Part shown: positions 7,526 to 9,899 of the stretch, one piece after another
Position numbering within the stretch: position 1 is the first letter of the stretch
Layout: the number at the start of each line of letters is the position of its first letter
DNA from: Armatimonadota bacterium
GTDB lineage: Bacteria; Armatimonadota; Fimbriimonadia; Fimbriimonadales; GBS-DC
Reading direction: 5' to 3'
Assembly (NCBI GenBank): GCA_013359125.1
Contig: JABWCR010000002.1
Coordinates: 1 to 64,000 of the forward strand
DNA: 64,000 nt
The notes under the pieces: generated by a model
What the model was told of the DNA's origin: nothing
What the model saw: only the letters and a program-made list of their open reading frames with translations
Database searches by the model: none
Translations under genes and position numbers: made by a program

Positions 7526-7557
7526 GGGAGGCGCGTATAGCGCCTCCCATTGTTTTT
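7526..7557. terminator. Rho-independent terminator, convergent
   Basis: Arms GGGAGGCGC (7526-7534) and GCGCCTCCC (7540-7548) pair perfectly over 9 bp around GTATA, followed by ATTGTTTTT on the + strand. It ends the HAF lipoprotein transcript. The arsM stop codon lies in the T-tract, so the same stem can block transcription from the other side. Confidence 0.9.
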
Positions 7558-8365
7558 AGACAGGTTTGGTCGCCCGCACGAAGGCGCTAACGATCTTGCC
7601 GTCGATCTGGGCGGCTTCCTCTGGCGAGAGTTTGGACTGGATCAGCTCTTCCAAGCCGCACGACCCTGCATCTTCGATCGTGTACCGTTTGACAGGCACG
7701 ATCTCGACATTGGCAAAGCCGACTTTCTCAAGCAGCTGCTTGAAGGTTGGGATGGGGAGAGCCCCGGCAACGCAGCCGATGTAGGCCAATAGGTCTTGGC
7801 TGACTGCTTGGGGAAGTTCGCCGTCCAACACGATGTCGGACACGGCGAAGCGACCGCCGGGCTTGAGCACGCGGAAGGCCTCTCGAAGCGCCAGTTCCTT
7901 GTCGACCGACAGGTTGATCACGCAGTTAGAGATCACCACGTCGACTGTGTCGTCGCGCAGAGGAACTTCCTCGATGCGTCCCTTGAGGAACTTCACATTG
8001 TCAAGGCCGGCCTCTTGTCGATTTCGCTCGGCCAGTTCCAGCATCTCGTCGGTCATGTCGAGGCCGTAAGCATAGCCGGTCGGGCCGACTCGCTTGGCCG
8101 ATAGAAGCACGTCTATGCCGCCGCCACTGCCCAGGTCGAGCACGGTCTCGCCGGGCTTCAGTTCGGCCAGGGCGGTCGGGTTGCCACAACCCAGCGAGGC
8201 CAAGGCCGCGCCTACGGGCAGTTCGCCGCGCTGTGCTTCGTCATAGAGCGCGATGTCGGACACGGTCTCGCCCGTGCCGCAACAGGCGCGCCCGCCTTCG
8301 GCGGCGCGTTTTGCCTGGGCGCCGTACTCTTTTTGGATCGCTTCTACCAACTGGTCTGCATTCAC
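7556..8365 (-). CDS. arsM: Arsenite S-adenosylmethionine methyltransferase
   Basis: A 269-residue protein that methylates As(III) with SAM to volatile or less bound methylarsenicals. The SAM site reads [17 protein letters not shown] (residues 75-91). The three cysteines that bind arsenic in characterised ArsM enzymes are present as C60 (SLGCGNP), C148 (ISNCVINLS) and C198 (YIGCVAG). The start is GTG 8365, with AAGGAG 8 nt before it; it overlaps the arsR stop as GTGA, so the two are translationally coupled. A nearby ATG three codons earlier is too close to the ribosome site. Length and motifs are normal for the family. Confidence 0.93.
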
Positions 8366-8676
8366 TTGCATTCTCCTTCGTTGCATTCAACGAGTTTAAG
8401 GGCTGCCGACAGCTCGGCTATCGCGTCTCGGTTTAAGCAGTAGATTGATCGGCGTCCCTCTTTGCGGACGGTAACCAGGCCAGCGTTCTTCAGTTCCTTA
8501 AGGTGAAAGCTGACCTTGGACGGGATCTGCTCGGTTCCATACAGGAAGCAACAGATGTCGGTAACCGATGTCCCGTCCTCGATTTCAAGGTCGCAACATC
8601 CCAGGCAGCCAATGATCTTGAGGCGCGTCGGATCGCCTAAGGCTTTGAACCGTTCGGCCAGTCTGTTTTCGTCCAT
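8362..8676 (-). CDS. arsR: ArsR-family arsenic-responsive repressor
   Basis: A 104-residue winged-helix repressor. LAERFKALGDPTRLKIIGCL is the typical ArsR N-terminus, and SKVSFHLKELKNAGLVTVRKEG is the recognition helix and wing. Cysteines cluster in GCLGCC and DICCF. The classic CVCDLC metal motif is not exact, so the thiol ligand set differs somewhat. ATG 8676 is chosen because a TATAAT box ends 7 nt before it, leaving no room for a leader; the longer reading from 8694 would start upstream of the -10 box. It should repress itself and arsM, releasing with arsenite. Confidence 0.92.
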   Translation of the reverse strand: MDENRLAERFKALGDPTRLKIIGCLGCCDLEIEDGTSVTDICCFLYGTEQIPSKVSFHLKELKNAGLVTVRKEGRRSIYCLNRDAIAELSAALKLVECNEGECK

Positions 8677-8682
8677 GGGGCT

Positions 8683-8711
8683 ATTATACCACACAATTCG
8701 AGAATTGTCGA
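8683..8711 (-). promoter_or_regulatory. arsR-arsM promoter with embedded operator
   Basis: Reverse strand: -35 TCGACA (8706-8711), 17-nt spacer, -10 TATAAT (8683-8688), then 6 nt to the arsR ATG. The spacer and inner edge of the -35 carry a perfect 7-bp inverted repeat, ACAATTC-GA-GAATTGT (8693-8708). This is where an ArsR dimer would block polymerase. The transcript should be leaderless. Confidence 0.85.
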
Positions 8712-8762
8712 AATGTCAAGCCTCCGACAGGATTGGAGGATGTGTAGGTCGAAATTGGCGAA

Positions 8763-9899
8763 ATGATTGTCAAGCGTCAACCGGGCAGCGCCGAGCCCAG
8801 ACAAGTCCGAATTGCTTTTGGAGACGATCCAAAGACAAAGATGAGCATTGTCTGGCAGACCGTAGACGATACGGAAACGCATCTCGTGCTGTATGGGACG
8901 ACGCGGCGCTTGGGCAATCGGGCGTTTGGTCGCCGGGTGCGGTACGCGCAGGAGACGGGCGTTATCCATGAAGTTCGGCTGATCGGCTTGAAGCCCGGAA
9001 CGACCTACTACTATCAGGTTGGCGATCGGATCGGCGGAATGAGCCAGACGTTCTCTTTTCGCACAGCGCCGGATCGGACGGATCGGTTTACTTTTACGGC
9101 GTTTGGCGACCATGGAATCAAGGCGGAATCTCGACGCAATGTAGAGAACGTGATTCGAGAGGCGCCTGCGTTTCATCTGATGTTGGGCGATCTATCGTAT
9201 GCGAACGGCAATCAGCCGATATGGGATCGCTATTACGAGATGCTTGAGCCGATGGCGGCCAACATCCCAGTGATGGTCGCTTTGGGCAATCATGAGAACG
9301 AGCGCATCGGCGAGGAGCGGATCGGCTATGTCGCCAGTTTGGCGCGTTTGGCCATGCCGGGAGACGAGACGCGGTATGCGTTCGACTATGGGACGGCGCG
9401 ATTTGTGGCGTTCAATTCGGACGATTATCGCAACGAGGAGCAGCTAAAGTGGTTGGACGAGACGTTGGATAGGGCAAAGCGCGATCGGAGAGTCCGTTGG
9501 ATCATTGTGTTCGATCATCATCCGCCGTATGGATCGACAGAGCGGCGAGGCAACAACGCCGGTTTGATCGAGCGGGTCGTGCCGTTGATCGACAAGCATC
9601 GAGTCGACCTGTTCTTAAGCGGGCACGATCATGTTTACGAACGAATGTACCCGCTAAGAGGGGGCGAGATAACGCAGAAGGGTCCGGAGCGGTTTCGGTC
9701 CGGGAATGGCACGGTCTACGTTATTCAGGGCGGCGGCGGACAATCGCTTTACAACTTTGTGCCCGAACAGCCGGCCGTTTCCGCAGTTCGCCACAGGGGA
9801 TACGGCTATCTAAGGTGCGAGGTAACGCCGAGCCGGATCAGTGTGGAAGCGAAAGGACTGGCGGGCGAGCCGATCGACCGGTTCTTCATCGATCGTTAG
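8763..9899 (+). CDS. Purple-acid-phosphatase-like metallophosphoesterase
   Basis: A 378-residue protein. Residues about 15-105 form a fibronectin-like N-domain (VRLIGLKPGTTYYYQVGD). The rest is a calcineurin-like phosphoesterase with FGDHG, MLGDLSYANG, ALGNHENE, VFDHHPPYGS and SGHDHVYERMYP, which supply the two-metal ligands. The order and spacing fit purple acid phosphatases. The substrate is unknown; phosphomonoesters are likely. No signal peptide is visible from ATG 8763, unlike many relatives, so it may be cytoplasmic. It is divergent from the arsenic operon and followed by msrA after 18 bp. Confidence 0.85.
   Translation: MIVKRQPGSAEPRQVRIAFGDDPKTKMSIVWQTVDDTETHLVLYGTTRRLGNRAFGRRVRYAQETGVIHEVRLIGLKPGTTYYYQVGDRIGGMSQTFSFRTAPDRTDRFTFTAFGDHGIKAESRRNVENVIREAPAFHLMLGDLSYANGNQPIWDRYYEMLEPMAANIPVMVALGNHENERIGEERIGYVASLARLAMPGDETRYAFDYGTARFVAFNSDDYRNEEQLKWLDETLDRAKRDRRVRWIIVFDHHPPYGSTERRGNNAGLIERVVPLIDKHRVDLFLSGHDHVYERMYPLRGGEITQKGPERFRSGNGTVYVIQGGGGQSLYNFVPEQPAVSAVRHRGYGYLRCEVTPSRISVEAKGLAGEPIDRFFIDR

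Follow-up and report, generated by a model that had tools for sequence, protein, structure and literature searches.

The question raised by this locus is where an ArsR repressor would bind in its own promoter, and whether the mRNA that it would control begins directly at the start codon. The window, i.e. the whole stretch of 64,000 nucleotides that was analysed, carries on its minus strand the gene pair arsR (8362..8676) and arsM (7556..8365). The product of arsR, a protein of 104 aa with eight cysteines, is an ArsR/SmtB winged-helix repressor according to NF033788 (63.3 bits, cut-off 55), PF01022 (28.1, cut-off 22) and PF12840 (29.9, cut-off 27), and arsM encodes an arsenite S-adenosylmethionine methyltransferase (NF008823, 325.6 bits, cut-off 263) with 5evj, 4kw7, 4fr0 and others as PDB relatives. 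An AlphaFold2 model of ArsR based on a 14-row alignment reached a mean pLDDT of 83.3 and a pTM of 0.76, and its top Foldseek match, 6j05_A (E 2.6e-07), indicates an ArsR fold. The same fold is found in the top PDB sequence matches, 6j05 and 6j0e, which we take to be AfArsR and CgArsR; 6j05 is also the top structure match. The two genes of the window overlap in GTGA, as an earlier note on this DNA had described, with the arsR stop codon TGA at 8364-8362 and the arsM start codon GTG at 8365-8363. A Shine-Dalgarno sequence for arsM, AAGGAG, can be read at 8373..8378 on the minus strand, inside the 3' end of arsR and 7 nt ahead of the GTG.

On the minus strand, the region upstream of arsR reads TTGACATTTCGACAATTCTCGAATTGTGTGGTATAATAGCCCCATGG. 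All elements named in the earlier note were found in it: TCGACA (8711-8706), a spacing of 17 nt, the -10 TATAAT (8688-8683), six nucleotides (AGCCCC) and the ATG (8674..8676), as well as a perfect 7-bp inverted repeat, ACAATTC-GA-GAATTGT (8693-8708), between TCGACA and TATAAT. This exact sequence occurs once in the window. Inverted repeats of this form in general (7-bp arms without a mismatch, 2-nt spacer) number 13, against a uniform expectation of 3.9. Since such repeats are common in the window, the repeat alone is weak evidence, and the case for an operator is carried by position and conservation.

Conservation was assessed with ArsR homologues, which were detected at an E-value of 1e-8 in 60 of 101 genomes, including the genome of the window itself (G000; 2.82 Mb, 47 contigs). 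The gene set comprised 83 distinct genes from the same order (30 + 53 loci; 79 of the 83 loci once repeats were removed). A contig scan gave 19 loci, 18 of which lack the ICC/VCC motif, look like another ArsR type and were discarded; the one of the right type, L031, corresponds to the L016 contig. An unsupervised, gapless EM motif search on the 83 upstream regions, which was blind to start codons and promoters, returned a single 24-bp element with the consensus ACATTTCG-ATATTTAT-CGAAATGT, in which the middle columns are weak (ACATTTCG-N8-CGAAATGT) and which is followed on its 3' side by a G-rich step and then a weak T/A-rich stretch. All eight positions of the outer arms match in 9 of the 83 genes, seven in 26, six in 23, five in 17 and fewer in 8. 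In the window, the predicted operator ACATTTCG-ACAATTCT-CGAATTGT spans 8693..8716 on the minus strand and matches at seven of the eight arm positions (ACATTTCG-N8-CGAATTGT); the perfect 7-bp repeat is nested in it as inner half-site plus right arm. A strict composite pattern had matches in 11 of 81 genomes and none for its reversed control, but it misses the site of the window and is therefore too strict for counting the family. A divergent purple acid phosphatase-like gene (8763-9899, plus strand) begins 47 nt past the operator.

The earlier note had placed the operator on a 16-bp site formed by the 7-bp arms and the 2-nt spacer, which would make the upstream half-site incidental. This repeat is perfect here (7/7), and its half-sites recur, with six or seven of seven matches in 27 of the 83 genes and some co-variation (259 of 476 pairs compared with 238.7 in shuffled data, sd 5.8, maximum 259, z 3.5). 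Nevertheless, the outer pairing is better kept, with six to eight matches of eight in 58 of the 83 genes, and it co-varies more strongly: among 68 non-redundant sites, 417 of 544 pairs were found compared with 363.7 in shuffled data (sd 7.0, z 7.6), and none of 2,000 shuffles was as high, their maximum being 393, with shuffles that ignore the relatedness of the sites for both pairings. Well-kept outer arms (six to eight of eight) combined with poor inner ones (zero to two of seven) occur in 16 of the 83 genes, while the converse (inner six or seven, outer at most four) occurs in 3. Moreover, in the available excerpts of the study on ArArsR, the repressor of the Arsenicibacter rosenii ArarsRMC operon, the protected sequence TTTTATCGTAATATTGCGATCACAATC contains ATCG-N8-CGAT, which has the spacing of the 24-bp site (PMC11868830). 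An operator of 16 bp is thus unlikely. The conserved site is 24 bp long, two arms of 8 bp around a spacer of 8 nt, and the 7-bp pairing had joined this spacer with the right arm; as judged from the alignment of the homologous sites, the operator is larger than the 7-bp inverted repeat and paired otherwise.

The revised boundaries also affect the reading of the promoter. The assignment of TCGACA as a -35 is doubtful because the hexamer falls within the operator and its alignment columns show the operator consensus; it is probably operator sequence and not an independent element. An exact TTGACA is also present at 8719-8714, but with 25 bp between it and the -10, and with little conservation of its first three columns across the homologues. 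For these reasons, the promoter was read as an extended -10, TGGTATAAT (8683..8691, minus strand), with the operator apparently replacing the -35. A promoter scan of 8300-9100 returned the arsR promoter as its single promoter-like site, with 11 of 12 matches and a TG preceding the -10 (shuffle control: mean 0.4 sites, sd 0.6). For the comparison of promoters, 75 of the 83 genes were kept that have at least five arm matches and a GA in the right arm, and 8 without a symmetric site at the place of the motif were dropped. TGn stands immediately 5' of the -10 in 39 of these 75 promoters. The distance from the end of the -10 to the next in-frame ATG, GTG or TTG is 6 nt in 39, 7 nt in 20 and 8 nt in 4 promoters, i.e. 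6 or 7 nt in 59 and 6-8 nt in 63 of the 75. The remaining 12 show another or no -10 distance, and in four of these the motif search had landed on a site at the start codon, which is described below.

In the window, the -10 of arsR likewise falls in this range of about 6-8 nt, ending 6 nt ahead of the ATG, and no Shine-Dalgarno sequence was seen upstream of this ATG, so that a leaderless mRNA with its transcription start at the ATG is predicted. The folding of the first 117 nt was unremarkable (z -0.71). If the mRNA were instead leadered and started from a promoter farther upstream, e.g. at the TTGACA, the site near the ATG would be a roadblock or a second element. The existence of this hexamer and the leadered-looking promoters in other classes of the phylum speak for such an arrangement. 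Its position and poor conservation, the missing Shine-Dalgarno sequence, the scan that found no other promoter-like site in 8300-9100 and the nearly fixed distance between -10 and start codon across the order all speak against it, and we regard it as very improbable. The earlier reading of an ArsR operator inside a leaderless promoter is retained in so far as an operator-like site lies in a leaderless-type promoter and this layout recurs in most homologues of the order, while the boundaries and the pairing of the operator had to be redrawn.

Bacterial leaderless genes with TANNNT ahead of the start codon are well described in the excerpts of two published studies (PMC3160421; PMC12340547). Over 464 kb of the genome that holds the window, TANNNT has its peak 7 nt 5' of candidate ATG and GTG starts: 21 of 574 have it there, compared with an average of 5.9 (sd 2.0) for distances of 12-40 nt, counted over 322 ORFs of at least 150 aa with uncurated starts. 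A strict -10 was found 6 and 12 times at 6 and 7 nt, respectively, among 851 in-frame candidates and not once among 1,122 out-of-frame ones. On the basis of these peaks, predicted leaderless genes are frequent in this genome.

Outside the order, 19 loci from other classes of the phylum (among L143-L170) all encode the same ArsR type. The EM motif scored at least 16 bits in 17 of them, with L159 and L166 below, while no shuffled version of the 83 upstream regions exceeded 7.2. On visual inspection, several of their promoters look leadered, some with a Shine-Dalgarno sequence; L169, for example, has TTGACA-TATAAT and GAGGAG before the ATG. This indicates that leaderlessness is no requirement of this ArsR type. 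At L165, the right arm of the operator runs into GAGGA. In the same family as the window, arsM of L182 (G005:C21:1-3500) follows a gene for another kind of ArsR, which contains VCVCDLQ; the palindrome there, ATATTGACAATCATCAATAT, also differs, and a -10, TGGTATACT, again precedes the ATG, here by eight nt. A similar palindrome occurs again just 5' of arsM at this locus, and arsM there has GGAGG.

The inducing signal has to be judged from the cysteines of the repressor. As noted earlier, ArsR lacks CVCDLC, the motif of the R773-type (type 1) site with Cys32, Cys34 and Cys37: it reads TDICC there, and its eight cysteines are at residues 24, 27, 28, 42, 43, 80, 98 and 103. Two further described As(III) sites are equally absent from it: Cys95, Cys96 and Cys102 of the type 2 repressor AfArsR, since C98 and C103 are present without an adjacent pair, and Cys15, Cys16 and Cys55 of the type 3 repressor CgArsR, since its first cysteine is residue 24 (sites as given in excerpts of PMC11868830). 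In the same excerpts, ArArsR likewise has an atypical set, Cys41 with Cys80 and Cys82 in the wing (PMC11868830). Compared by position, ArsR of the window has C42/C43 and one wing cysteine, C80, which lies in strand 76-81 of the model, and the set of ArArsR appears nearest in logic. Among the 83 homologues, C42 is kept in 79, C43 in 77, C27 in 54 and the last cysteine in 70, and the wing column adjoining C80 holds a cysteine in 78. C80 itself is one residue off this family position, the C-terminal CC of many relatives is lacking, and the protein is divergent, with at most 52% identity to the matches listed.

A main signal other than arsenite, such as methylarsenite, antimonite or a soft metal (Cd, Pb), has to be considered. 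The cysteine set does not correspond to any of the described sites of types 1, 2 and 3, matches to CmtR and other named sensor profiles exist, albeit below their cut-offs, and ArArsR is described, in the excerpts, as answering both arsenite and methylarsenite (PMC11868830). On the other hand, the operon partner is ArsM, and many of the homologous repressors have arsenic genes downstream. A different main signal is a possibility of minor weight, and it is compatible with the favoured explanation given below, which needs just a trivalent arsenical.

Among the homologues, the next ORF after arsR is ArsM-like in 33 of the 83 genes, including that of the window, and no ORF was found downstream of 10. 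Profiles applied to 10 downstream proteins identified ArsD, ArsI/CadI, ACR3 and ArsM above NCBIfam cut-offs, whereas arsenate reductase, aquaporin (2) and ArsO remained below the cut-off and 2 proteins matched nothing. In the own genome, the operator pattern has one site with 0-1 mismatches on both strands, which is the site of the window, and this fits pure autoregulation. With up to two mismatches, there were 69 matches compared with 23 for the reversed-pattern control. Four other sites (one mismatch on one strand, two on the other) were considered for a wider regulon and rejected, all of them lying in open frames of at least 200 codons. A search for the arsenite efflux proteins ACR3 and ArsB gave no match in the own genome, and methylation may therefore be its main arsenic defence. 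Since no ArsR homologue was detected at an E-value of 1e-8 in the 17 other genomes of the family, and ArsM occurs in 2 of its 18 genomes, the own one included, the arsRM operon appears to be patchy in the family, having been either gained or widely lost.

Several published systems resemble parts of this arrangement. In the excerpts of its description, ArArsR is autorepressed, as is predicted here, and shares the arsR-arsM operon and the equal half-site spacing (N8) with the window, but it belongs to other bacteria, its cysteines are at other positions, and its site covers positions -46 to -19 relative to the start codon; in the window, it is the -10 that abuts the ATG (PMC11868830). According to the excerpts on nreAXY of Mesorhizobium, a metal repressor gene is also first in the operon, a dyad operator lies between -35 and -10, and the mRNA was found to be leaderless by 5'-RACE in a heterologous host; NreA belongs to the CsoR/RcnR family and responds to nickel, and no ArsR is involved there (PMC12724321). 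In the excerpts on acuR-acuI-dddL of Rhodobacter sphaeroides, the repressor gene is leaderless, in that case by 5'-RACE, and an inverted-repeat operator (8-bp arms, n6) overlaps the promoter, but AcuR is a TetR-family protein responding to acrylate (PMC3017554). The same excerpts name lambda cI and Tn1721 tetR as repressors made from leaderless mRNA, which belong to other families and respond to other signals (PMC3017554). The design of an operator in a leaderless promoter is thus not new, as it has been published for nickel and acrylate. Its combination with this ArsR in Armatimonadota was not found in print in the open-licence literature, which is a weak negative.

Taken together, we consider it highly probable that arsR and arsM are transcribed as a leaderless arsRM mRNA under arsenical-released autorepression through the predicted 24-bp operator. 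Without an arsenical, an ArsR dimer would sit on 8693-8716, just 5' of the extended -10, and the bound repressor would occupy the place of RNA polymerase and block transcription. Binding of a trivalent arsenical to the cysteines of ArsR would release the repressor. Transcription would then start at or beside the A of the arsR ATG (8676), ArsR would be made from the resulting leaderless mRNA without a ribosome-binding site, and ArsM, translated from the AAGGAG/GTG site of its own gene at the overlap with the arsR stop codon, would methylate arsenite. This explanation is favoured by the autoregulation suggested by the single genomic site, the recurrence of the element in 83 genes, the co-variation of its arms, which supports a symmetric operator in the promoter of ArsR itself, and the arsenic genes nearby. 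Against it stand the 8 of 83 genes without a symmetric site and the 12 of 75 without the 6-8 nt spacing, the divergence of ArsR with its offset C80 and lacking C-terminal CC, the leadered-looking promoters of other classes and the four one-mismatch sites elsewhere in the genome.

In one clade of relatives, though not in the window, the arsR start codon falls within a second operator-like palindrome (TCATTTCG-ATG-N5-CGAAATGA). A site overlapping some in-frame start-like codon was flagged in 31 of the 83 genes, and 20 of these were picked by eye (L003, L021, L025, L057, L058, L062, L063, L065, L068, L071, L076, L077, L081, L086, L089, L090, L092, L093, L096 and L099); the remaining flagged genes, in which the overlap concerns start-like codons inside the upstream operator (operator 1) or elsewhere, were rejected. 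The ATG is at a fixed place in the palindrome in 19 of the 20 loci, with L068 out of register. Five to eight of eight arm positions match around the ATG in 19 of the 20 picked loci compared with zero to four in 56 of 58 control genes, a contrast that is descriptive because the 20 were picked by that very feature; the controls exclude 5 genes that have no start in range. The distance to operator 1 is 33 or 34 bp in 13 of the 20, and L021, L076 and L077 have no clear operator 1. Co-variation of the arms is modest (118 of 144 pairs, shuffled mean 111.7, 134 of 5,000 shuffles as high) because the sites are nearly alike, and at L058 both arms are altered in step (ATAATTCG / CGAATTAT). On a tree that leaves out the N-terminus and resolves 40 of its 80 inner branches, the trait requires 2 changes compared with a shuffled mean of 18.2, none of 500 shuffles being as low, and the palindrome is nearly confined to one clade. 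L071 (G039:C11:177753-181019) has two divergent arsR genes with a common intergenic region and several operator copies, and aquaporin-like and ArsO-like genes as neighbours.

We lean slightly towards the view that this palindrome is a second ArsR operator that contains the start codon of a leaderless arsR, so that a single DNA site would serve as operator, as start of both transcription and translation, and as coding sequence. In this case, the mRNA would not include the left arm. The right arm would encode amino acids 4 and 5 of ArsR and reach into the adjoining codons 3 and 6. A leaderless mRNA would also mean that the palindrome cannot act as a hairpin in the RNA.

For arsenic control in this little-studied phylum, the analysis provides a precise grammar of operator and promoter with corrected operator boundaries, and it suggests that a leaderless promoter controlled by a metalloid has been kept across an order. 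Should the interpretation of the start-codon palindrome be true, one ArsR operator would occur in the phylum in three promoter designs: with a leader, without one, and without one and with the start codon enclosed in an operator. The last of these would show how a regulatory site can fuse with coding sequence once the leader is lost.
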